NCBI RefSeq assembly: GCF_018304825.1
Contig: NZ_CP072649.1
Coordinates: 558,001-622,000 of the forward strand
Source: Chloracidobacterium validum
Lineage (GTDB): Bacteria; Acidobacteriota; Blastocatellia; Chloracidobacteriales; Chloracidobacteriaceae
Direction: 5' to 3'
DNA: 64,000 nucleotides
The first letter of the stretch is position 1; each line of letters opens with the position of its first letter. The position numbers and the translations under genes are program-made. The notes under the pieces were generated by a model, which saw nothing but the letters and a program-made list of their open reading frames with translations, did no database searches and was not told where the DNA came from. Shown here piece by piece: positions 13,116 through 49,504 of this stretch.

Positions 13116-14129
13116 TCACAACTGGCGCACCCAGCGCGCAATGCCTGGCCACACGACATCTACGGCGCTCTTCCCGATTGACAGGCCATGGTGGCCGCCG
13201 TTGACGGCAAGCAACGCCTTCTTCTGGCTCCCAACGAGCGGCATCAGCGCCTCCGAAGAAACGCGCGGCACGACGTCGTCATGGTTGGCAACCACATTGA
13301 GGAGCGGCACGGTAATCTGCTCAAGCCGCACCACGCGCCGCCCCAACTTGAGCTTGCCCTGGACGAGTTGGTTTTCCTGGTAGCACCACTTCACAAACTG
13401 GCGAAATGTCTCCCCCGGCAGCGAGACGACATCGTTGACCCAGTAATCAAACGCCAGAAATGTCTCAACAAAGTCATCATTTTCGGCGTTCTGAAGCAAA
13501 TCCACGTACTTGGTGAGGTTCTTGGTGGGCTTCATCATCATGAAGGTGGACTGGAGGAGCTGTTCCGGCGGGTTGCCCAGCGTGTCCACGAGTTTGTCCA
13601 CATCAAAGTAATCACGGCGCGTCCAAAGATTCAGGATGGCGTCATTGTTGAAATCCACCGGCGTCGCCAGAAGCGCCAGTCCCCGGACGCGGGCCGGATG
13701 CAGTGCCGTGTACATCAGGGCAAGCGTTCCGCCCATGCAGTACCCAAGCAGCGCGACCTGTTCGGCCTGGGCGTCGGCGCAGACGGCTTCAACGCTGTGG
13801 GCCAAATACTGATTGACGTGATGAGCCAGGGTGAGTCGGGCATCCCCGGCATCGGGAACGCCCCAGTCAATCATGTAAACCGGGATGCCTTCCCCGGCCA
13901 GGTAGGCCACGAAGCTCTTTCCCGGCGTCAAGTCGAGAATGTAGTACTTGTTGACAAGCGAGTTGACGATGAGCACCGGCGCGGCAGGCTTCCGCCGTTT
14001 TCGCGCCGGTTCATATCCGAGGACCCGCAGTTTGTTTTCCTGATAGACGGTACGCGACGGCGTCGGAGCAATGTTCGGCTTCTTGCCGAGACGCGCGACC
14101 AAGCGCGTGATGTGCGCCAGTTGGGTCAT
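13116..14129 (-). CDS. phaC: Class III-type poly(R)-hydroxyalkanoate synthase subunit PhaC
   Basis: A 337-residue alpha/beta-hydrolase-fold enzyme, near the 350-360 residues usual for class III PhaC. It polymerises 3-hydroxyacyl-CoA into PHA granules. The lipase-like box is GYCMGG with catalytic Cys131; the Asp is in VVANHDDVVP (about 284) and the His in NGGHHGLS (about 313-314). The conserved VLIVNSLVNKYYILDLTPGKS and VYMIDWGVPD segments are present. It is the only canonical Cys-type synthase in the window; class III enzymes need a PhaE partner, and a PhaE-like gene lies 20 kb away at 33890-34408 next to a Ser-type paralogue. A GNAT gene follows on the same strand. Confidence 0.93.
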   Translation of the reverse strand: MTQLAHITRLVARLGKKPNIAPTPSRTVYQENKLRVLGYEPARKRRKPAAPVLIVNSLVNKYYILDLTPGKSFVAYLAGEGIPVYMIDWGVPDAGDARLTLAHHVNQYLAHSVEAVCADAQAEQVALLGYCMGGTLALMYTALHPARVRGLALLATPVDFNNDAILNLWTRRDYFDVDKLVDTLGNPPEQLLQSTFMMMKPTKNLTKYVDLLQNAENDDFVETFLAFDYWVNDVVSLPGETFRQFVKWCYQENQLVQGKLKLGRRVVRLEQITVPLLNVVANHDDVVPRVSSEALMPLVGSQKKALLAVNGGHHGLSIGKSAVDVVWPGIARWVRQL

Positions 14130-32081: not shown

Positions 32082-32564
32082 CTACCGCCGGCCGTGACGC
32101 GCCGTGCCAAACTCGTCATTGGCTTTGTTCTCACGTCGTTCTTCGTCCGATTTACGCGCCGCGCGCCAATTTTCCTTGTGCTTTTCGATGGCTTGCACTT
32201 CCTTTGAGGCTTCGATGAGTCCCTGAAGAGCCGCCTCGACCGCGTCTTCGGCCCGTTGGATTGCCGCTTGCTGTTGCTCGACGGCAGCACGCAAACGCGC
32301 TTCTTCTTCCCTGAGGTCGGCTAGAAAGGTTCGGTGCGCGAGCAATGCCTGGGCGGAAGAACCGGACCGTAAGGCCGCCAGGAGTTTCGCATCCGCTTCG
32401 GCCTGACGCGCACGACAGGCGTCCACGGCGGCCATCCGCCGCGCCAATTCGGCTTCGGCATCAGCCAACGCCTGCCGCGCATCAGCCAGCCGATGCGCCG
32501 CGTCCTGTTTGGCCTGCTCCCGAACATCCAGGACTGGTTGTAAGCGATAACGCGATTTCTTCAT
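32082..32564 (-). CDS. FliJ/SctO-like coiled-coil stalk protein
   Basis: A 160-residue, almost wholly helical protein with two long antiparallel coiled-coil arms (about 10-65 and 75-140). The first residues KKSRYRLQPVLDVREQAKQD match the typical FliJ/YscO opening (Y-R-L-x-x-[VL]-L-x-x-R). In type III export the FliJ/SctO stalk links the ATPase ring to the export gate. It lies about 5 kb from the sctU island on the opposite strand, not next to an ATPase gene. Coiled coils give weak family signals, so the call is tentative. Confidence 0.55.
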   Translation of the reverse strand: MKKSRYRLQPVLDVREQAKQDAAHRLADARQALADAEAELARRMAAVDACRARQAEADAKLLAALRSGSSAQALLAHRTFLADLREEEARLRAAVEQQQAAIQRAEDAVEAALQGLIEASKEVQAIEKHKENWRAARKSDEERRENKANDEFGTARHGRR

Positions 32565-32708: not shown

Positions 32709-33893
32709 TTAGGCATTCAACCACTGCGCGACGGTCGGCCAAATCGTTGTGGTCGCCCCTTGACCAATCGCCAACGCCAAATGTCCCAGTGGGGCTTGAT
32801 ACTCGGCGTAGTGTCCGGCCGGGAGTTGCTCGGCCAACGCAGTGGCGCTGCCCGGATTCACAATCTGATCCCGTAGTCCAATCAAGTTGAGCGTTGGACA
32901 ATCAAGCCGACGCAGTGCGGCCCGCCGCCCGGTCAGCTCCAACTTGCCTTCCCACAAAGCGTTGTCGCGGTAGTAGGCCGTGACGAAATCAGCGTAAAAC
33001 GCTCCCGGTAGCGGCACGGCATCCGCCAACCACACTTCGGCGGCCAGGTGCGTATCGCGTTCAGCCGCCGCCAGTCCGACCAGCCAGGGCTTGGTCAAGT
33101 AGGTCATGGGCTTGAGGCCGCGAAATGCGGCGCTCACCAACCAACCCGGCAGGTTCCCAAACACAGAAGCCAGGCGCCAGGGATCAAAGTCCGGGTGGGA
33201 CAACCAAGCGCGTAACGGCGTGTCACGGGCAAAGTCGGACGGCGTCCCCATCAGCACCAGGGTTTTCACCTGCGCCGGATGTAACACCGCATAGGTCGTC
33301 GCCAGCACGCCCCCCATCGAATACCCCAGCAGATGCGTTTGGGTGGCTCCGGTCTGACTCAGCACAGCATCAACCGCGCGCCCGATGACGCCTTCCACGA
33401 CATCTACCAGTCGCCACCGACGTTCGGCGTGGCCAGGTGTCCCCCAATCCAGAACGAAGACCTCCTGACCGCCACCAGCTAGGAAGGACACGAAGCTGCG
33501 CCCGGCGTAGAGATCAAAGATGTAGTGGCGGTTGATCAGCGAGTTGACAATCAGTATCGGAGCTGGCGACGGTCGCCGACCGCCAGCCGGCGCGTAACGC
33601 CGCAACCGGCTCGCACCGATGAGTGGCGCGACCGTACAGGGCGTGGTGGCCACCGGCGGCGCAACCGCCCGCGCCATCGCCAAATGCGTCAACTGCCGCG
33701 CCTCCTGCGTGAGCATAAAGGGGTGCCAGGGCCAGGCCGCGCCTGATCGGTCCACCCAGTCGAGCCAGCCGTTGAGATACCTAGTCGAAAGCGCTGTCCA
33801 GAGGGGTCGTTCCGTTTGACGCAGTAGCCACCCGTCGAGCAACCACTGCCAGTTTTCAAAAGCTTCGGCAAGCGTGGGCGAAGAAGGAGTCAC
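32709..33893 (-). CDS. PhaC-like paralogue with Ser in place of the catalytic Cys
   Basis: A 394-residue alpha/beta-hydrolase clearly related to the class III synthase at 13116-14129: shared blocks are APILIVNSLINRHYIFDLYA, VFVLDWGTPGHAERRW and LVLMGTPSDF. The nucleophile box reads GYSMGG, so Ser192 replaces the Cys that all known PHA synthases use; Asp (GLRDQIVNP) and His (PLGHLAL) are kept. About 50 extra N-terminal residues are present. Options are a granule-associated hydrolase/depolymerase or transferase, or a low-activity synthase. The ATG overlaps the stop of the PhaE-like gene by four bases, and the phasin gene is upstream, so it belongs to a granule operon. Confidence 0.85.
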   Translation of the reverse strand: MTPSSPTLAEAFENWQWLLDGWLLRQTERPLWTALSTRYLNGWLDWVDRSGAAWPWHPFMLTQEARQLTHLAMARAVAPPVATTPCTVAPLIGASRLRRYAPAGGRRPSPAPILIVNSLINRHYIFDLYAGRSFVSFLAGGGQEVFVLDWGTPGHAERRWRLVDVVEGVIGRAVDAVLSQTGATQTHLLGYSMGGVLATTYAVLHPAQVKTLVLMGTPSDFARDTPLRAWLSHPDFDPWRLASVFGNLPGWLVSAAFRGLKPMTYLTKPWLVGLAAAERDTHLAAEVWLADAVPLPGAFYADFVTAYYRDNALWEGKLELTGRRAALRRLDCPTLNLIGLRDQIVNPGSATALAEQLPAGHYAEYQAPLGHLALAIGQGATTTIWPTVAQWLNA

Positions 33894-34408
33894 GAAGCCG
33901 GTGGCGCATCGGCAGCCGATGCCGTCTCCTTTGAAGAATCAACCTTTGAAGAATCAACCGCAGCCGCGCGGGACGAACGCCGCCGGACCGATGCTGCACG
34001 CTTGGCAGCGGAGCCACGCGCCGCCGCAGGGGACGCACGTCTCGGCATGCGCTTTGGCGCGCGCGCCGCCAACTCGTCGGCGGCCAGTTGCGCCGTCAGC
34101 GTCTCTACCTGCTCACCCAAGGCGTCGAGCTTACGGTCGAGCGCCACAATTTCCTCGCGGGTGGGGACGTTGATCAGCCGCAAGCCGAACCCAACCAGCA
34201 TGCGCGTCCGCTCCAGCAAGGTTAAAACACCATTGATATAGAGCGAAACCGGTCGCAAAAAGAATGGATGACGCAGCAAAGCGTCCCACTGGGCCGATGA
34301 GGTTCGCGTTGCGGTCTCATAAAGGGACTGGGGAATGGATTTAGCGGGCCGGCGAGCTTTGGTGGCTTGGCTGGCTTTGGAGTCGGCTTGCGCCCGTGCC
34401 ATAGACAT
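33890..34408 (-). CDS. PhaE-like PHA synthase subunit/granule-associated protein
   Basis: A 172-residue protein. The middle (about 28-105) carries ETATRTSSAQWDALLRHPFF, a hydrophobic helix (SLYINGVLTLLERTRMLVGF) and NVPTREEIVALDRKLDALGE, the last resembling the C-terminal helix of PhaE, the partner of class III PhaC. The N-terminus and the Arg/Ala/Ser-rich tail (about 115-172) are basic and likely disordered; a basic tail could tether granules to DNA, as known for other granule proteins. It is much shorter than typical PhaE (about 350 residues). It overlaps the Ser-type PhaC gene by ATGA and follows the phasin gene by 115 bases. Confidence 0.65.
   Translation of the reverse strand: MSMARAQADSKASQATKARRPAKSIPQSLYETATRTSSAQWDALLRHPFFLRPVSLYINGVLTLLERTRMLVGFGLRLINVPTREEIVALDRKLDALGEQVETLTAQLAADELAARAPKRMPRRASPAAARGSAAKRAASVRRRSSRAAAVDSSKVDSSKETASAADAPPAS
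33928..33957. repeat. 15-bp perfect in-frame tandem duplication in the PhaE-like gene
   Basis: CCTTTGAAGAATCAA occurs twice in a row and encodes the repeated VDSSK in the disordered tail of the PhaE-like protein. It keeps the frame, so it only lengthens the tail by five residues. Confidence 0.9.
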
Positions 34409-34523: not shown

Positions 34524-34898
34524 CTACTTGACAATGTGGTTCATCGGAAACGCCATCAGTTCCATATGCTTCCGCAGCCCGTCATTGACAAGCGCGTTCC
34601 ACTGCTCGAATGCCGACCGCGCTGCTTCGACGCCGGACGTGGCAATTTCGCGTGCGGCATCGCCCGTGGCCACGGTCATCCGCTCCGTTCCGGTCAGCAT
34701 CGTCGCCATGGATTTCAAGGCCTCTTCCTGAACGGCCAAGCCGGCCCGCATCGTCGCAAAGGCCGCCGACCGTGAGGCAGCCGCCATGTCCAGCATCACG
34801 TCCGTTGCCGACTGCACGGCGTTGGTTACGGGATCCGTCACCGAGCCAGGGCGACCGGTGGTATCGGTTGTTTTTTCGGTGCGCTTTGGTTGCGTCAT
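34524..34898 (-). CDS. Phasin-like PHA granule coat protein
   Basis: A 124-residue protein, mostly amphipathic helix, Ala/Met/Thr rich, with no Cys or Trp-rich core except one Trp in EQWNALVNDGLRKHMEL. The pattern SATDVMLDMAAASRSAAFATM...QEEALKSMATMLTG resembles phasins, which coat PHA granules. The call rests on composition and on the operon: PhaE-like and PhaC-like genes follow. AGGAG precedes the ATG by about 11 bases. A 20-bp motif shared with the phaR promoter lies about 92 bases upstream, which supports control by PhaR. Confidence 0.7.
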   Translation of the reverse strand: MTQPKRTEKTTDTTGRPGSVTDPVTNAVQSATDVMLDMAAASRSAAFATMRAGLAVQEEALKSMATMLTGTERMTVATGDAAREIATSGVEAARSAFEQWNALVNDGLRKHMELMAFPMNHIVK

Positions 34899-35009: not shown

Positions 35010-35276
35010 CACCTATCCAAAGCGCAATTTTCTTCAGCAACTCAAGTAAAAGCGGGAGAAACACCCTGGCGACAGTTATTTTGTGCATAAGCAAAACAGG
35101 GCGAGACTTCCACCGGAACACGCTTGCAAAGCGGCACGAGCCATCCTCACCGAGGGCAAGTTGAAACTTATGTCCGTTTCACGGCTCATCCCTTGCGGCC
35201 GGTCGTCGGTCTCCGGCACACTGGTTTGCGCTGGCGTTCGCGCCCAAGTCGTTGCTCGTTTTGGGAGGACTCCGCT

Positions 35277-36296
35277 ATGTCCGCACCCGTTGCCCTTGCC
35301 CCACCCCACCGATTGACCGTCGAAGCGTTTCTTGACTACGGTGAGCCAGACCGCCGCTACGAGCTGGTCCGAGGGATTCCGGTCGAGATGCCGCCGCCCA
35401 CCGAACTGCATCAAATCATCATCGCTGCCTTGTTTCATATGTTTTGCCGCGCCATTGCCGAGCGGGGGCTGCCCTACGAGGTCGTCCAGCTTGGGTTGCA
35501 GACCGAAGCGGATACAGTACGGATACCGGACGGGCTGGTGTACCGGAAGGTGGATGGGGTGAGGGTGAGTGATGAACGGCGCAGTGGGGTGGTGTGGCTG
35601 GAGCTGAAGACGGTGGTGGTGGCGGTGGAGGTGGTGAGTACGAATCGGCGGGACGACTACGTGGTGAAGTTGGAGGAGTATGCGCGGCGGGGGATTGGGG
35701 AGTATGTGATCGTGGATGTCAAGCAGGGGCAGGTTGTGGTGCATCGGCATCCGGTGGTGACGGATGGGGTGTATGGGGAGCGCGGGGTATATCAGCGCGG
35801 GGAGGCGTTTGTATTGGAGGGTTTGGGCGGGGCGGCGTTTGAGGTTGGGCCGCTTCTGGATGGGAAGACGGCGGGCGAGTTGGCGCGGGAGGACGTGGAG
35901 CGGTTGCGGGCGGAGGCGGCAGCGCGGCGTACGGCGGAAGCGCTAGCTGAAGTTGAACGCCAAGCCAAGGAAGCCGAGCGTCAGGCGCGACTCGATGCTG
36001 AAACCCGCGCCGAAGCCGAACGCCAAGCCAGGGAAGCCGAGCGTCAGGCGCGACTCGATGCTGAAACCCGCGCCGAAGCCGAACGCCAAGCCAAGGAAGC
36101 TGAGCGTCAGGCGCGACTTGATGCTGAAACCCGTGCTGAAGCCGAACGCCAAGCCAAGGAAGCCGAGCGTCAGGCGCGACTTGATGCTGAAACCCGTGCT
36201 GAAGCCGAACGCCAGGCCCGCGCTCAACTCGAAGCCGAACTTGCCCGCTTGCGCGCCGACCGCCAGCCAACGCCGGATAACCCACCCCAGCCGTGA
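35277..36296 (+). CDS. Uma2-family (DUF820) PD-(D/E)XK endonuclease-like protein with coiled-coil repeat tail
   Basis: A 339-residue protein. Residues about 10-190 match the Uma2 family: LTVEAFLDYGEPDRRYELVRGIPVEMPPP, the catalytic-type segment with Asp in RIPDGLVY and the E-x-V pair in VVAVEVVS, then KLEEYARRGIGEYVIVD. From about 225 it is a charged coiled coil made of four 21-residue repeats (ERQA[KR]EAERQARLDAETRAEA). Uma2 proteins are a large, mobile family in cyanobacteria and some other phyla, of uncertain role. GGGAGG is upstream of the ATG. The stretch about 35520-35930 is extremely G-rich on the coding strand, unlike its two ends. Confidence 0.88.
   Translation: MSAPVALAPPHRLTVEAFLDYGEPDRRYELVRGIPVEMPPPTELHQIIIAALFHMFCRAIAERGLPYEVVQLGLQTEADTVRIPDGLVYRKVDGVRVSDERRSGVVWLELKTVVVAVEVVSTNRRDDYVVKLEEYARRGIGEYVIVDVKQGQVVVHRHPVVTDGVYGERGVYQRGEAFVLEGLGGAAFEVGPLLDGKTAGELAREDVERLRAEAAARRTAEALAEVERQAKEAERQARLDAETRAEAERQAREAERQARLDAETRAEAERQAKEAERQARLDAETRAEAERQAKEAERQARLDAETRAEAERQARAQLEAELARLRADRQPTPDNPPQP
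35955..36206 (+). repeat. Four 63-bp tandem repeats inside the Uma2-family gene
   Basis: Four near-identical 63-bp units start at 35955, 36018, 36081 and 36144, each beginning GAACGCCAAGCC; a partial fifth begins at 36207. Unit 2 has AGG for AAG (Arg for Lys) and units 3-4 carry a few silent changes (GCGACTTGATGC, CCGTGCTGAA). They encode the coiled-coil repeats, so copy number can change without breaking the frame. Confidence 0.95.
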
Positions 36297-44006: not shown

Positions 44007-44067
44007 AGAAATGTGTTGACGCCTGCCAAGCTGATTGCGTAAAAATTCCCATGACGCGGTACATGCC

Positions 44068-44568
44068 ATGCATAACGCACTGACCATCAAGCGGTATGGC
44101 AACCGGCGGCTCTATGACACGGAGTCCGGCGGTTACCTCACGAATCAAGACGTGGTGGACATCATCCGGCAGGGACGTGACATCCGCGTTGTGGACTCCC
44201 GCACCGGCGAGGACATCACCAAAATGGTGCTGATCAACATCATCCTCGAAGAAGAAAAGCTGCGGCAAAATCTCCTACCGGTGTCATTTCTCCTGCAACT
44301 CATCCGGCTGCAAGGGGAAACCCTCCAGGACTTCTTCCAGAACTACCTCACGGCCAGCCTGGAAGCTTACCTCAAGACACGCCAGGAGTTTGATCGCCGG
44401 TTTCGGGAGTGGCTCGACCTCGGCGCAGCCATGACGCGCCTTGCCTCCCCAGGCGACGAATCCGTGACCTCCCCGCCGGCCGTTGCCGCGCTCCGCGCCC
44501 CGGCCAAGCGCCGCTCGGCCAAGCCGCAAACGAAGCGCAAAACCCGCTCCAAACCACCCGCGCCCTGA
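44068..44568 (+). CDS. phaR: Polyhydroxyalkanoate synthesis regulator PhaR
   Basis: A 166-residue protein with the PHB/PHA accumulation regulator N-terminal domain: IKRYGNRRLYDTESGGYLTNQDVVDIIRQGRDIRVVDSRTGEDIT is diagnostic, and LLPVSFLLQLIRLQGETLQDFFQ is the start of the following domain. PhaR binds both PHA granules and DNA and represses phasin and its own gene until polymer forms. The C-terminal tail is Lys/Arg/Pro rich, as in many granule-binding relatives. ATG 44068 places the conserved domain at the start. It heads an operon with acyl-CoA ligases, a hydrolase and a KASIII. Confidence 0.93.
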   Translation: MHNALTIKRYGNRRLYDTESGGYLTNQDVVDIIRQGRDIRVVDSRTGEDITKMVLINIILEEEKLRQNLLPVSFLLQLIRLQGETLQDFFQNYLTASLEAYLKTRQEFDRRFREWLDLGAAMTRLASPGDESVTSPPAVAALRAPAKRRSAKPQTKRKTRSKPPAP

Positions 44569-44578
44569 CGGTCTTCCC

Positions 44579-46129
44579 ATGATGGCTTCGGCTTCCACGC
44601 CCATTGATTGGCTCGCGCGGCGCGCGCAACTGTCGCCGAACCGGACGGCACTTCGGGACGCGCGCGACGGCTATGCTCCCGTCACCTACGGCGCATGGTT
44701 TCGGCGCGTCAACCAAACCGCCCACTTCCTTCAACAACGCCTCGGAGTCCGTCCCGGCGACCGGGTGGCGGTGCTGGCGCGCAACTGTCCGGCGTACCTC
44801 GATATCTGGTTTGCCCTGGGCCAGCTTGGCGGGATTTTGCAAAACCTCAACTGGCGACTCAGTCCGCGTGAGCTGGCCACGCTGGTGGATGACGCCGCCC
44901 CGGTCGCGCTCGTTACCGACACTGAGCATGCGGGGGTCGCGGCTGAACTTGCCCGTTCCAGGTCGCTGCGCCTGGTCAGCCTGGACGGCGACACGACGCC
45001 GGCGCTGGCAGAACGTGACACATACCCGCCAACGCCCCTGCCCCCGCCACCCATCGGCCCAGAAGCTCCATGGGTGGTCTGCTATACCGGCGGCTCGACG
45101 GGTACGCCCAAAGGCGCAGTGCTGTCGCATCGCGCCATCCTCGCCAATGCGGTCAACACGGTGTTGTCGTGGGGACTGCGCCCCGACGATGTGACGCTGC
45201 TCGATGCTCCACTCTTCCATACCGGCGGTCTCAACGTCCTGACCGCCCCGCTGGTCGCCATCGGCGGCACGAGCATCGTGGCGGGAGGTTTCGCGCCAGA
45301 CCAGACCTTCGATGCCATCGAGCAGCACGGCGTCACCGTCCTGTTCGGTGTTCCGACGATGTTCATCGAACTCCAGCGCCATCCCCGCTGGGCAACGGCA
45401 GACTTCAGTCGCCTGCGCTTTGTCATCAGCGGCGGCGCGCCCTGCCCCCAGCCGGTCTACGAGGCGTTCTGGGACAAAGGCGTTGCGTTCAAAACGGGCT
45501 ACGGGTTGACCGAAGCCGGGCCGAACACCTTCTGGCTGCCGGATGACCAACTCAAGACCAAGCCCGGTGCCGTTGGCTACCCGCTCTGGTCGGTCGAAGC
45601 GCGCGTCATGCGGGCGGATGGCAGCCCTTGTCCCCCGGATGACATCGGTGAACTCTGCGTGCGTGGCCCACACCTGTTTTCTGGTTACTGGAACAACGCG
45701 GCCGCTACGGCAGCCGCGTTTGACGCCGATGGCTGGCTCCATACCGGTGACTTGGCGACCTGTGACGCCGACGGCTGTTTTCGCATCGTCGGGCGGCTCA
45801 AGGATATGTTCATTTCCGGGGGCGAAAACGTCTATCCGGCGGAAGTCGAAAGCGTTTTGCACGAGTGCCCGGCCGTGGCCGAAGCCGCCGTCATCGGTAT
45901 TCCCGACCCCAAGTGGGGTGAAATCGGCGTGGCATTTGTCGTCCTGACCCAGGACATCGCCGACGCCGACCTCGCGGCATTTTGCCGCGCGCGCCTTGCC
46001 GCTTACAAAGTTCCAAAGCGCTTCGTTCGTTTGTCGGCGCTGCCTAAAACCGGCGCGCACAAGGTAGATAAGCTCGCCCTCCGCGCCCAACTCACCGAAG
46101 GCACACCCGAAACTCAGAAAGGACGATGA
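44579..46129 (+). CDS. AMP-forming acyl-CoA ligase (first of two)
   Basis: A 516-residue ANL-superfamily enzyme. Motifs: the P-loop VCYTGGSTGTPKGAVLSH (A3), YGLTEAGP (A5), HTGDLATCDADGCFRIVGRLKDMF (A7-A8 hinge) and SGGENVYPAEVE; the C-terminal adenylation Lys is in KTGAHKVDKLAL. It activates a carboxylic acid as acyl-AMP and transfers it to CoA; the pocket suggests a medium- or long-chain substrate but this is inference. It starts ten bases after phaR and is followed four bases later by the hydrolase gene. It pairs with a second ligase at 47951. Confidence 0.92.
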   Translation: MMASASTPIDWLARRAQLSPNRTALRDARDGYAPVTYGAWFRRVNQTAHFLQQRLGVRPGDRVAVLARNCPAYLDIWFALGQLGGILQNLNWRLSPRELATLVDDAAPVALVTDTEHAGVAAELARSRSLRLVSLDGDTTPALAERDTYPPTPLPPPPIGPEAPWVVCYTGGSTGTPKGAVLSHRAILANAVNTVLSWGLRPDDVTLLDAPLFHTGGLNVLTAPLVAIGGTSIVAGGFAPDQTFDAIEQHGVTVLFGVPTMFIELQRHPRWATADFSRLRFVISGGAPCPQPVYEAFWDKGVAFKTGYGLTEAGPNTFWLPDDQLKTKPGAVGYPLWSVEARVMRADGSPCPPDDIGELCVRGPHLFSGYWNNAAATAAAFDADGWLHTGDLATCDADGCFRIVGRLKDMFISGGENVYPAEVESVLHECPAVAEAAVIGIPDPKWGEIGVAFVVLTQDIADADLAAFCRARLAAYKVPKRFVRLSALPKTGAHKVDKLALRAQLTEGTPETQKGR

Positions 46130-46133
46130 CCTG

Positions 46134-46934
46134 ATGCCACACATCACGACCAACGGCGTGCAACTCTACGTGGAAGACACCGGTGGTGACCGCCCGGCGG
46201 TGCTGTTCATTGCCGGGCTGGGGTATGACGAGTGGTTCTGGGCGCAGTCGGTTGCCCCCTACCTGCGGGATGACTACCGACTGGTGATGCCGGCCAACCG
46301 CGGCGCCGGTCGGAGCGACAAGCCGGCCGGCCCCTACACAACGGCCCAGATGGCGGCCGACATGCTCGGTCTGCTGGACGCGCTGGCGCTCGAACAGGTC
46401 ATCGTCGTCGGGCATTCGCTTGGCGGCTTCATTGCGCAGGAACTTACCCTGGCCGCTCCCAACCGGGTGCGCAAACTCGTGCTGGCCGGAACGAGCTTTG
46501 GCGGTCCGCAGTCCATCCCACCTACACCGGCCGCCCTGGCAGTGCTGATGCTCGACCGGACGCTTGACCCGATGGAACTCATTCGGCGGGGACTAGAGAC
46601 GGCCGTCGCCCCGGCGTTTCTCGCCGCCAAGCCGCCCATGCTCGACGCCCTGATTGCCTACCGGCTCACAACACCCGTGCCGCCTGAAGCCTTCCAAAGC
46701 CAGTTGATGGCCGGGGCCGCCCACGATGCTGCCGACCGCATCGCGGCCATCGGCTGTCCGACGCTGCTGGTGGCCGGCGAACTCGACCAAGTCGTTCCAC
46801 CGGGCAACGTCGCCTTGCTCCAGGCCAAGCTTCCCCAGGCCGAGTCGGTGGTGATTCCCGACGCCGGCCACCTGTTCCCCATCGAAAAACCCCAGGAAAC
46901 GGCAACGGCCCTGGCCGACTTTTTCCGCCGTTGA
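46134..46934 (+). CDS. Alpha/beta hydrolase
   Basis: A 266-residue alpha/beta-hydrolase fold protein. The oxyanion-side sequence is VLFIAGLGYDEWFW, the nucleophile elbow GHSLGG gives Ser near 102, the acidic residue is in VAGELDQVVPPG (about 221) and the His in PDAGHLFPIEKP (about 246). The family includes esterases, lactonases and thioesterases; the substrate is unknown. It sits between an acyl-CoA ligase and a ketoacyl-synthase-like gene, spaced by four and 16 bases, so it may act on the same acyl intermediate. Confidence 0.88.
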   Translation: MPHITTNGVQLYVEDTGGDRPAVLFIAGLGYDEWFWAQSVAPYLRDDYRLVMPANRGAGRSDKPAGPYTTAQMAADMLGLLDALALEQVIVVGHSLGGFIAQELTLAAPNRVRKLVLAGTSFGGPQSIPPTPAALAVLMLDRTLDPMELIRRGLETAVAPAFLAAKPPMLDALIAYRLTTPVPPEAFQSQLMAGAAHDAADRIAAIGCPTLLVAGELDQVVPPGNVALLQAKLPQAESVVIPDAGHLFPIEKPQETATALADFFRR

Positions 46935-46950
46935 CCACAGGAGTAACCGA

Positions 46951-47946
46951 ATGACGCGCCATGCGCACATCCTGGCAACCGGCAGTTATGCGCCCGCGCG
47001 CGTCGTGCCGAACGCCGAGTTTGACGCCCGCTTTGGCGAACCGGTCGGCGATTGGCTCGTCGCCAACGTTGGCATCCATGAGCGACGCTACATGCGCGAC
47101 GATGAAACCACGTCGGACATGGTGACGGCAGCAGCCCGGCAGGCGCTGGAGCGCGCCCGGCTTGATCCGACCGATCTCGACCTCATCATCGTTGCGACCG
47201 ACACGCCGGATTATCTGTCGCCGGCCACGGCCTCGGTCGTCCAGTCCAAGCTGGGCGCGCGGCGGGCCGGAACGTTCGACCTCAACGCCGCCTGCGCCGG
47301 CTGGGTGACGGCGCTCAACCAGGCCGCGCTGACCATCACCGCCGATGCCGACTACCGGCACGTTCTCGTGGCCGGGGGCTACGGCATGAGCCGCTTCCTC
47401 GACCCCCACGATAAGTACACCGCAACGCTGTTTGCCGACGGCGCCGGCGCGGTCATCCTCGGGGCCGGCGAACGACCCGGTTTCCTGGCCGGCAAGCTCC
47501 AGGCGGTCGGGGAGTTTCACGACGCCATGGGGATTTATACCGGTGGGACGTTTCGCCCGTGCACGGCCGCGACCCTGGCCGCCTTTGGCCCGCCCAAGGT
47601 GCAGTTCATTCGCAAGTTTCCCCGCACGTTCAACACCGAATACTGGCCTGCGCTGATTCGCGCGGCGCTGGCCAAGGCGGCGCTCCCGCTCGCCGAAGTG
47701 GATTGGTTTCTGTTCACGCAGATCAACCTGCGCACCATCGAAATGGTGATGGACCTGCTCGGACAACCGCTCACCAAGACCCACTGGATCATGGACAAGT
47801 GGGGCTACACCGGCTCGGCCTGCCTGCCCATGGCGCTCGACGACCTGGTGATGACACGGCAGGAACTGCGTCCCGGACAAACCATCGTGTTCTGCGCCAG
47901 CGGCGGGGGCATCGCCCTGGCCGCGTCAGTCTGGAGGTGGATCTAA
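46951..47946 (+). CDS. KASIII/FabH-like condensing enzyme lacking the usual His and Asn
   Basis: A 331-residue thiolase-fold protein of FabH length. The Cys nucleophile is present (Cys115 in LNAACAGWVT) and the fold motifs LIIVATDTPDYLSPATAS and LFADGAGAVIL match 3-oxoacyl-ACP synthase III. At the position of the FabH motif H-Q-A-N the sequence reads T256-Q-I-N, and where FabH has G-N-T-S it reads G285-Y-T-G, so both residues that normally decarboxylate malonyl-ACP are replaced. Inference: an acyltransferase, or a condenser using a pre-activated partner, rather than a starter enzyme of fatty acid synthesis. It lies in the phaR operon between a hydrolase and an acyl-CoA ligase. Confidence 0.88.
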   Translation: MTRHAHILATGSYAPARVVPNAEFDARFGEPVGDWLVANVGIHERRYMRDDETTSDMVTAAARQALERARLDPTDLDLIIVATDTPDYLSPATASVVQSKLGARRAGTFDLNAACAGWVTALNQAALTITADADYRHVLVAGGYGMSRFLDPHDKYTATLFADGAGAVILGAGERPGFLAGKLQAVGEFHDAMGIYTGGTFRPCTAATLAAFGPPKVQFIRKFPRTFNTEYWPALIRAALAKAALPLAEVDWFLFTQINLRTIEMVMDLLGQPLTKTHWIMDKWGYTGSACLPMALDDLVMTRQELRPGQTIVFCASGGGIALAASVWRWI

Positions 47947-47950
47947 CGCC

Positions 47951-49504
47951 ATGCTGGTTGGATTGGGCGATTACCTTGGCCGCCGCGCCGTGTATTCCCC
48001 GGACGCGCCGGCCTTTGTGGATGCCGGCAAGGCAACGCCACTCCGGCTGACCTTTGCCGAAGCCGACGTGCGCGCAACGCGCGTTGCCGCCGCGCTCCGC
48101 CGCATCGGCGTTGGTCAGGGTGATCGCGTCGCCCTGCTGGCGCGGGACGGCATCGAACACCTGGACGCCTTCTTTGCCTGCGCCAAGCTCGGCGCACTGC
48201 ATACGCCGTTCAACTGGCGGCTGCACTGGCGGGAAAACCTGGCCATCATCAAACAACTGCAACCCCGAGTCCTGCTTTTCGGCGACGACTTCGCCGAGGC
48301 CGTCGCGGCCATGCAGTCCACGGGCGAACTGGGCGACACGGCCCTGGTTCACCTCGGAGCGCTGCCGGTTGCCGACAGCTTCGCGTTTGCCGAATGGCTG
48401 ACGACACCCGCCCCAGACTTTGCCCCGGCGCCGGTTCAACCGGAAGACATCGCGGCGCTCATCTTCACCGGAGGCACGACCGGAACGCCAAAGGCAGCGG
48501 CCATTTCCCACCGCCAGATTGCCTGGAACACGCTCAACACCGTCCTGCACGACCTGCGGCACGGCGACTGTTACCTGAACGTCTTCCCGCTCTTTCACAC
48601 GGGCGGGCTGTTTGTCTATACCGTGCCGTTGGCGATTCTGGGCGGGACGACGATTCTCGTTCGGCAGTTCGACGCGGCCCAGACGCTTGACCTCATTGCC
48701 CGCGAGCGGGTGACGGTCTTTGCCGGCGTGCCGACGATGTACCAGATGATGCTGGCCGCGCCGACCTGGGCCACGGCCGACCTCTCTTCGCTGCGCTTTT
48801 GCACCAGCGGTGGCGCACCGCTGCCACTCACCATCATTGAGGCCTACCGGGTCCAAAAAGGCGTGTGCTTCAAGCAGGGATTCGGGATGACCGAGTTCGG
48901 CCCCGGCGTCTTTGCCCTTGCCCCAGACGATGCCGAACGCAAGGCCGGCTCCATCGGACGGCCAAACTTTTTCGTCGAAGCCGCCGTGATGGACGACGCC
49001 GGGAATCTGCTCCCGCCGGAAGTCGCCGGTGAGCTGGTGCTGCGCGGGCCGTCCGGTTCGTCCGGGTACTTTGGCAATCCTGATGCCACGGCGGCCAGCC
49101 GTGACGCCGCGGGCTGGTTTCACACCGGCGACATGGCGCGGTATGACGCCGAAGGCTACTTCTTCATCGTTGACCGCAAGAAGGACATGTTCATTTCGGG
49201 CGGCGAAAACGTCTATCCGGCCGAGATCGAGCAGGCGCTCTACACCCATCCGGCCGTGGCCATGTGTGCCGTCGTCGGACTTCCCGACCCGAAGTGGGGT
49301 GAAGTCGGCGCGGCCTGCGTCGTCCTGAAGCCGGAGATGACGGCGACCGAAACCGAACTCATCACGTTTCTGCGCGACCGCCTGGCCGGGTACAAGGTTC
49401 CGAAGACCGTTCACTTCCTTGACGCCCTGCCAATGAGCGCGGCCGGCAAGGTTCTCAAGCGCGAGCTCCGCGACCGGCTCGCGCCACCACCTACGACCAA
49501 CTGA
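47951..49504 (+). CDS. AMP-forming acyl-CoA ligase (second of two)
   Basis: A 517-residue ANL enzyme related to the ligase at 44579: LIFTGGTTGTPKAAAISH, QGFGMTEFGPG, HTGDMARYDAEGYFFIVDRKKDMF and SGGENVYPAEIE, with the Lys of MSAAGKVLKRELRD near the end. It begins four bases past the KASIII stop, so it is translationally close. Two ligases around a hydrolase and a KASIII suggest that two different acids feed one condensation or exchange pathway, or that they supply hydroxyacyl-CoA for PHA. The substrates are not predictable. Confidence 0.92.
   Translation: MLVGLGDYLGRRAVYSPDAPAFVDAGKATPLRLTFAEADVRATRVAAALRRIGVGQGDRVALLARDGIEHLDAFFACAKLGALHTPFNWRLHWRENLAIIKQLQPRVLLFGDDFAEAVAAMQSTGELGDTALVHLGALPVADSFAFAEWLTTPAPDFAPAPVQPEDIAALIFTGGTTGTPKAAAISHRQIAWNTLNTVLHDLRHGDCYLNVFPLFHTGGLFVYTVPLAILGGTTILVRQFDAAQTLDLIARERVTVFAGVPTMYQMMLAAPTWATADLSSLRFCTSGGAPLPLTIIEAYRVQKGVCFKQGFGMTEFGPGVFALAPDDAERKAGSIGRPNFFVEAAVMDDAGNLLPPEVAGELVLRGPSGSSGYFGNPDATAASRDAAGWFHTGDMARYDAEGYFFIVDRKKDMFISGGENVYPAEIEQALYTHPAVAMCAVVGLPDPKWGEVGAACVVLKPEMTATETELITFLRDRLAGYKVPKTVHFLDALPMSAAGKVLKRELRDRLAPPPTTN

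Follow-up and report, generated by a model that had tools for sequence, protein, structure and literature searches.

A natural serine-nucleophile paralogue of PHA synthase next to a PhaE-like gene in Chloracidobacterium validum and its relatives

Introduction

In Cys-dependent PHA synthases, as described in excerpts of PMC10215190, the polymer grows as a Cys-bound chain that is lengthened by successive acyl-CoA attacks. According to excerpts of PMC8878867, PHA synthases carry out chain transfer, and some of them, such as PhaRC of B. cereus YB-4, also catalyse alcoholysis. As both reactions occur even with Cys synthases, the step from polymerization to a release function is a short one.

Serine in a putative PHA-synthase box is described, in excerpts of PMC8313934, for Streptomyces coelicolor SCO7613 and the S. 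aureofaciens 'PhaC', where the box reads GASAG. By the same excerpts, SCO7613 is a protein of ~82 kDa, conserved triad residues are absent around the box, and the effect may be indirect. Among the matches listed in a search of mainly open-access literature, there was no report of a natural PhaC combining Ser with a complete triad. An engineered case is the class II enzyme P. aeruginosa PhaC1 Cys296Ser, which Amara and Rehm reportedly presented in 2003 under a title that has it mediating 'synthesis of a new polyester'. If the title is taken at its word, the nucleophile alone does not decide the reaction.

Here, we describe a natural PhaC-type gene with Ser at this position in Chloracidobacterium validum, whose genome comprises 3,659,143 bases in 2 contigs. 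The window, meaning the whole 64,000-nucleotide stretch analysed, is C2:558001-622000.

Results

A serine at the nucleophile position

The features of the window that bear on this gene are:

13116..14129, minus strand: Cys-type, class III-like PhaC paralogue of 337 aa with a GYCMGG box (TIGR01836, 336.8 bits; cut-off 365.3)
32709..33893, minus strand: Ser-nucleophile PhaC-type alpha/beta-hydrolase paralogue, an ORF of 394 aa with a GTG start
32781..32783, minus strand: codon of His371, the catalytic His (LGHLA), aligned with the PhaC His
32868..32870, minus strand: codon of Asp342, the catalytic Asp (LRDQI), aligned with the PhaC Asp
33318..33320, minus strand: TCG codon of Ser192 (33320-33318), at the position of the PHA-synthase Cys by sequence and alignment
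33890..34408, minus strand: small PhaE-like protein of 172 aa, its stop overlapping the Ser-gene start; assigned from weak family matches, a profile and spacing
34524..34898, minus strand: 124-aa ORF preceding the PhaE-like gene, phasin-like by position and size only
44035..44568, plus strand: PhaR, regulator of PHA accumulation (TIGR01848, 115.4 bits, above the cut-off of 109.45)

The Ser gene is read from 33893 to 32709, and its GTG start overlaps the stop of the preceding gene. Residues 188-196 of the product are LLGYSMGGV. An earlier note on this DNA had placed Ser192 in a GYSMGG box at 32709-33893, with Asp and His kept, and had named a Cys synthase with GYCMGG at 13116-14129. These coordinates are right, both genes lie on the minus strand, and Asp342 and His371 align with the PhaC triad, as they do in 13/13 members of the Ser clade described below. 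The residue that follows Asp342 is Gln343, and it too is Gln in 13/13. Directly downstream of the Ser gene lies a FliJ/YscO-type export protein gene (32082-32564, minus strand; TIGR02473, 59.4 bits, above the cut-off of 50.45). Elsewhere in the window, a long ORF at 35124-36296 (plus strand) carries a repeated AERQARLDAETRAEAERQA-type tail; we take its start to be Uma2-like.

The best NCBIfam match of the Ser protein is class III PhaC (TIGR01836, E 2.9e-61), with 207.4 bits, below the cut-off of 365.3. PhaC_N (PF07167) scores 23.3 bits, just under the gathering cut-off of 23.7, as compared to 46.2 for the Cys paralogue, and the generic Pfam family Abhydrolase_1 is also matched. By sequence, the five best solved relatives of the Ser protein are PHA synthases (9knj, E 5e-20). 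The Ser protein is 39% identical to the Cys paralogue at 13116..14129 and 31% identical to a third PhaC-like protein of the genome, also with Cys, encoded at C1:1082061.

Predicted fold and pocket residues

An AF2 model of the Ser protein, built from 36 sequences, has a mean pLDDT of 94.9. The seven PDB entries closest to it are PhaC structures (Z 36.3 to 32.4), led by 9knl_A with an rmsd of 2.3 over 316 residues; gastric-type lipases come next, from Z 27.2 downwards. PhaZ, the PHB depolymerase of B. thuringiensis (8ynv), reaches Z 21.7, no better than generic lipases, and since depolymerase families may be unlisted in this comparison, absence from it is no evidence. The model of the Cys paralogue (pLDDT 94.5) likewise has PhaC as its nearest folds (Z 38.9 to 34.0; next 27.6). 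As modelled, then, the fold of the Ser protein is that of PhaC; a fold by itself shows no function.

The two models differ at the N terminus. The Ser protein has a helical extension (helices 8-26, 30-50 and 58-77) that is missing from the short Cys paralogue. In a comparison with full-length A. caviae PhaC (9knk_B), 350 residues of the model, between 14 and 394, align with chain residues 147-552. Part of the extension thus tentatively aligns with the N-domain side of the A. caviae enzyme, a region in which the method is barely tested.

Positions conserved among PhaC proteins are listed, in R. eutropha numbering, in excerpts of PMC10215190. Of these, D254, W277, W425, D428, Y445, N448, D480 and H508 are unchanged in 13/13 Ser proteins. 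Others are not kept: Q256 (0/13), N314 (0/13), T288 (2/13), Y292 (3/13), D464 (3/13) and N248 (10/13), several of which also vary in Cys rows. At Tyr406, the 13 Ser rows have Pro (9) or Gly (4), as compared to Tyr in 17/17 rows of the short and long Cys forms, and at His481 all 13 have Gln. As both of these positions vary among other Cys PhaCs, the two changes are weak evidence and no proof of altered chemistry.

The gene is also constrained. In pairwise NG86 comparisons (15 pairs per gene), dN/dS is ~0.15-0.25 for the Ser gene, as compared to 0.06-0.16 for the short Cys gene; the ratios were taken by hand, and dS is high in most pairs. The Ser gene is under purifying selection, yet evolves faster than its short Cys paralogue.

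A constant PhaE-like neighbour

The 172-aa protein encoded immediately upstream is similar to the C-terminal portion of PhaE and to a granule protein of the phasin type. Its matches to TIGR01837 (E 0.00076) and TIGR01834 (E 0.063) both fall far below cut-off. Its relatives at loci L054 and L055 match PF05597/PF09712 (E 3.8e-05 and 0.0015) and TIGR01834 (E 0.00083), all likewise sub-cut-off. The 124-aa ORF that precedes it matches no Pfam or NCBIfam family above cut-off; L054 and L055 have small ORFs at the corresponding position, and these lack Pfam matches as well.

A profile was built from seven seeds: the protein of the window, four phmmer relatives and two picked by eye. With this profile, a PhaE-like gene is found upstream of, and on the same strand as, 13/13 Ser genes; seven of these genomes supplied seeds, and the six non-seed Ser loci are all recovered (6/6, E 2e-42 to 9e-38). 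Of the phasin/PhaE-like setting that the earlier note had ascribed to the Ser gene, the PhaE-like part is supported, and it holds across the clade. The Ser start lies at most 7 bases from the PhaE-like stop in 10/13, in one of these only by way of a downstream start. At one locus, a 193-aa ORF (L061:2916-3497, plus strand; genome G057) stands between the two genes, presumably a REP-associated transposase.

The profile has no match in the loci of the long Cys form (0/2), or in five of six loci of the short Cys gene in the genus (L002, L010, L011, L013 and L014). In the genome G003, a second PhaE-like ORF (L012:2900-3469, plus strand) lies near the short Cys phaC gene, on the opposite strand. 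Outside the class, 63 ORFs in Cys phaC loci are matched (E 3e-13 to 2e-4): 48 precede the phaC frame on its own strand, and the other 15 overlap it; as we read the coordinates, 13 of these 15 end before the matched part of phaC. Strict upstream matches occur in 28/30 Pseudomonadota loci, many of them to the C-terminal part of PhaE-sized frames of 370-450 aa; in 14/34 loci of the Myxococcota search, some being repeats or from another search; and in 6/19 other Acidobacteriota loci. The annotated PhaE of a Rhizobium plasmid is not recovered by the profile, and its weak matches may partly reflect coiled-coil likeness.

In six of the 13 genomes (G007, G008, G009, G052, G055 and G057), the short Cys gene directly follows the Ser gene, giving the order phaE - phaC(Ser) - phaC(Cys). 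This order points to a subunit of a synthase system. Both it and the constant PhaE-like neighbour are new observations. The short Cys gene accompanies the Ser gene in 12/13 genomes overall, the exception (G005) being 85% complete; in the three two-contig genomes of the genus, the two genes lie ~19, 20 and 71 kb apart. Of the loci with the long Cys form, L057 carries two phaC genes separated by a gene of the acyl-CoA-ligase type; L056 contains two ORFs whose weak matches are hydratase-like and two that are ligase-like by eye.

Distribution and phylogeny of the Ser form

An orthologue with GYSMGG is present in 7/7 genomes of the genus. Of 162 Blastocatellia genomes searched, 19 have a match at E <= 1e-40, and 13 encode a long PhaC (with the N-terminal extension) carrying Ser: G000-G006, G007, G008, G009, G052, G055 and G057. 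The six orthologues outside the genus have GYSMGG in five cases and GYSLGG in one. Two further genomes (G012 and G013) encode a long PhaC with Cys (GYCIGG), and four (G010, G011, G020 and G021) have no long PhaC at E <= 1e-40. One record with the ORFs of G007, which belongs to the window's family (L025, JAAFHI010000185.1), is titled Actinomycetota while its contig is named WN_Acidobacteria; the title is probably wrong.

Beyond the class, Cys prevails. A phylum sample of 396 genomes gave 27 with a match at E <= 1e-45, and the 19 newly read ORFs all have Cys. Among 195 Myxococcota genomes (67 matching at E <= 1e-58) and 398 Pseudomonadota genomes (63 matching at E <= 1e-50), the best 30 loci of each were read, and all ORFs covering the site have Cys. 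For plasmids, loci were read in the best 2 of 215 records; as the reading in these three sets covers the best matches, Ser PhaCs elsewhere could be missed. In total, 127 distinct PhaC-like ORFs comprise 111 with Cys, 15 with Ser and 1 that does not cover the site, a count that is restricted to ORFs of at least 200 aa with E no higher than 1e-20 and leaves aside one ORF nested within another. The 15 Ser ORFs are the 13 long ones and two others, from G010 and G011, that belong to a less closely related PhaC-like subfamily.

The earlier note had proposed a phylogeny to see whether Ser is fixed in a clade, and it is: a tree of 55 rows places all 13 Ser proteins in a single clade (97/91), with Ser in every member. 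The two long Cys proteins are its sister (together 99/96), and 15 short Cys proteins stand apart (100/98). Rows were hand-chosen in this and the following tree to represent each group. For a reduced tree of 54 rows, the alignment was stripped of its class I row, its N-terminal extension and the two trait columns, those of the nucleophile and of the residue following Asp342. The clade persists (97/89), with a branch that separates its members from all other rows in 98% of 200 bootstrap trees. We therefore reject the idea that either the longest branch or the trait itself produced the clade. A sequencing error or strain-specific change can be dismissed with near certainty, as 13 genomes carry Ser through three different Ser codons.

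On the 54-row tree, the Ser/Cys state needs 2 changes, placed by row positions in the long clade and the G010/G011 pair, a count that does not separate gain from loss. The codons agree with two independent events: TCN (TCG, TCC or TCA) in 13/13 long Ser genes, and AGT in G010 and G011. As nearly all outside rows have Cys, Cys was probably the first state, with a single Cys-to-Ser change in the long clade. The second change is seen in L063:558-1832 (G010) and L064:301-1536 (G011), both GYSMGG with the AGT codon. These ORFs belong to a distant LMVTPQ-type subfamily; Cys is retained by their relatives in G009, G013 and the genome of the window.

Taxonomy and the gene tree conflict at one point. 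The genomes G012 and G013 (f2), with the long Cys form, are in the window's order, and G052, G055 and G057 (f6), with the Ser form, are outside it; the gene tree instead groups f6 with the window's family and leaves f2 outside. Transfer, an old duplication or reversion to Cys in f2 would each explain this.

Other PHA genes

PhaR lies ~9 kb from the PhaE-like and 124-aa genes in the window. It is present in 7/7 genomes of the genus (PF07879), and it adjoins the phaE-phaC(Ser) genes in L054, L069, L070 and L071. In the window, PhaR begins a plus-strand block (44035-49504) that continues with an acyl-CoA ligase, a Ser-type alpha/beta hydrolase (GHSLGG), a beta-ketoacyl-ACP synthase III-like gene and another acyl-CoA ligase. 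Its leading genes adjoin phaE-phaC(Ser) in L069, L070 and L071. We take the make-up of the block to recall ole-type clusters.

No genome of the genus (0/7) has a PhaZ match to TIGR01849 above cut-off, this being the sole depolymerase family searched genome-wide. At E <= 0.001, the family matches only the short Cys gene, below cut-off, in 6/7 genomes. The Ser protein scores 25.7 bits against the scl-PHA depolymerase family NF050089 (cut-off 300). The lack of a TIGR01849 PhaZ leaves a gap that the Ser enzyme, the Ser-type hydrolase at 46134-46934 or another family could fill. Acetoacetyl-CoA reductase (TIGR01829) is likewise found in 0/7 genomes above its cut-off of 302, among many dehydrogenases with a best score per genome of 245-260 bits. 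As for the store itself, a table in excerpts of PMC4400912 lists glycogen, not PHA, for Chloracidobacterium, and excerpts of PMC8100337 report peaks only for glycogen in some Blastocatellaceae cells.

Discussion

Considered jointly, the residues, the predicted fold and the gene neighbourhood lead us to favour, tentatively and at a little under an even chance, one explanation: the product of the Ser gene belongs, with a Cys-type PhaC and PhaE, to a single PHA synthase system, in which it is the member with a Ser nucleophile and releases or cuts chains. The PhaE-like neighbour, the conserved triad and the PhaC pocket together speak for an enzyme that is active and would act on 3-hydroxyacyl groups at the granule. 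A pure pseudoenzyme is rejected, as Ser, Asp and His are kept in 13/13.

The proposed mechanism would involve: placement of the Ser protein on the granule with PhaE and the Cys synthase; uptake of a 3-hydroxyacyl or polymer acyl group by Ser192 as an oxyester; and passage of this group to water or an alcohol, which may be a chain end, instead of processive thioester-driven growth. The Cys PhaC at 13116..14129 is presumed to be the polymerizing partner, and the chains that it makes would thereby be released, shortened or mobilized by the Ser enzyme. As an oxyester on Ser is less activated than a thioester, the simplest prediction is that the group passes to water or alcohol, be it as release, chain transfer or depolymerization.

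Consistent with this proposal, the triad and most pocket residues are kept, the Ser proteins form one clade with TCN codons throughout, and the gene is constrained. Its surroundings fit as well: the PhaE-like gene in every case, the Cys phaC directly after it in 6/13, PhaR nearby, and the lack of a TIGR01849 match. Several observations pull the other way. The Ser and Cys genes are far apart in the window's genus and are not an operon there. The nearest folds are those of synthases, with a Ser-type PhaZ lower, and the engineered Cys-to-Ser class II synthase, by its title, apparently still makes polyester. Some of the listed PhaC residues are lost, glycogen is listed as the store, and TIGR01829 is found in 0/7. 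The earlier note had called the Ser form of this PhaC paralogue hydrolase-like and had proposed that it may be a granule depolymerase or chain-transfer enzyme. The Cys-to-Ser change in a PhaC paralogue stands, as do the kept Asp and His. In its predicted fold and in most pocket residues, the protein matches PhaC and not a depolymerase. The depolymerase or chain-transfer reading is one of three live options.

A more specific form of the favoured explanation, which we consider rather unlikely, is a three-part synthase made of PhaE, a chain-growing Cys-PhaC and an editing or releasing Ser-PhaC, the last being one copy of a duplicated polymerase that, by a swap of its nucleophile, turned into the built-in chain terminator or depolymerase. 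If this were true, a single fold and, in some genomes, a single operon would serve both the making and the releasing of polymer.

An alternative, itself unlikely, would be that the Ser protein is a structural or regulatory partner. It would form a heteromer with Cys-PhaC and PhaE, supplying its N-terminal helical domain and a dimer surface, and its own chemistry would be minor. The short Cys paralogue (337 aa), without the N-terminal helices that the Ser protein has, makes such a partnership plausible. Trp425, which excerpts of PMC5509742 tie to dimerization in PhaC, has its equivalent in 13/13 Ser proteins. Co-occurrence with the short Cys gene (12/13) and the faster evolution of the Ser copy would also agree with this role; the 13/13 retention of the triad, needless for a purely structural subunit, argues against it.

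Less probable still is a working PHA synthase that polymerizes through Ser, perhaps with other monomers. The title of the engineered Cys296Ser class II report, with its new polyester, keeps this option live. The gene also follows a PhaE-like gene, the place that phaC takes after phaE in an annotated class III pair of Rhizobium, and its product has most of the pocket residues and the predicted fold of PhaC. Against this, Cys is kept in 111/127 PhaC-like ORFs read, and the tested natural synthases described in the source excerpts use Cys, bar the disputed Streptomyces case. The replacement of Tyr406 by Pro or Gly and of His481 by Gln in 13/13 weighs weakly in the same direction, both positions varying in other Cys PhaCs.

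An ordinary esterase or thioesterase that left PHA metabolism would account for the Ser-Asp-His triad, the generic Abhydrolase_1 matches and a genus for which the source excerpts do not establish PHA storage, but it is improbable given the PhaE-like gene upstream in 13/13, PhaR or a Cys phaC nearby in relatives, the retained PhaC-specific residues and a fold at Z 36.3 to PhaC as compared to 27.2 for the next lipase.

For bioplastics, it matters in practice how PHA chain length is set and what a Cys nucleophile contributes beyond Ser. A natural Ser clade that keeps its triad, beside PHA genes and with a Cys sister, offers a ready test bed for both questions.

Comparison with known systems

The Ser-PhaC is a variant of PhaC and no new kind of system. 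It is most like class III PhaC, which acts with PhaE: TIGR01836 is its best NCBIfam match, and the predicted fold, the Asp and His and most pocket residues are shared. A PhaE-like gene lies upstream, but its match to TIGR01834 (E 0.063) is below cut-off. The Ser-PhaC differs in its nucleophile, in a TIGR01836 score below cut-off (207.4 bits; cut-off 365.3), in the small size of its PhaE-like partner and in the presence of a second, Cys-type PhaC. The class I synthases of A. caviae, Chromobacterium USM2 and C. necator provide the nearest solved folds (Z 32.4-36.3), but have a Cys nucleophile and a longer N-domain and are 21-26% identical in those alignments.

Among Ser enzymes, B. thuringiensis PhaZ (8ynv; NF050089) shares the alpha/beta-hydrolase fold (Z 21.7) and the Ser nucleophile, whereas the Ser protein reaches 25.7 of the 300 bits of NF050089 and is no closer to PhaZ in fold than to generic lipases. 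The Streptomyces GASAG proteins also have Ser in a putative PHA-synthase box, by the excerpts cited above; in the Ser-PhaC, in contrast, the triad is complete. The same nucleophile change as in P. aeruginosa PhaC1 Cys296Ser, to go by its title, is found here; that enzyme is man-made and single, whereas the Ser form described here occurs in nature, is fixed throughout a clade and comes with a Cys paralogue.
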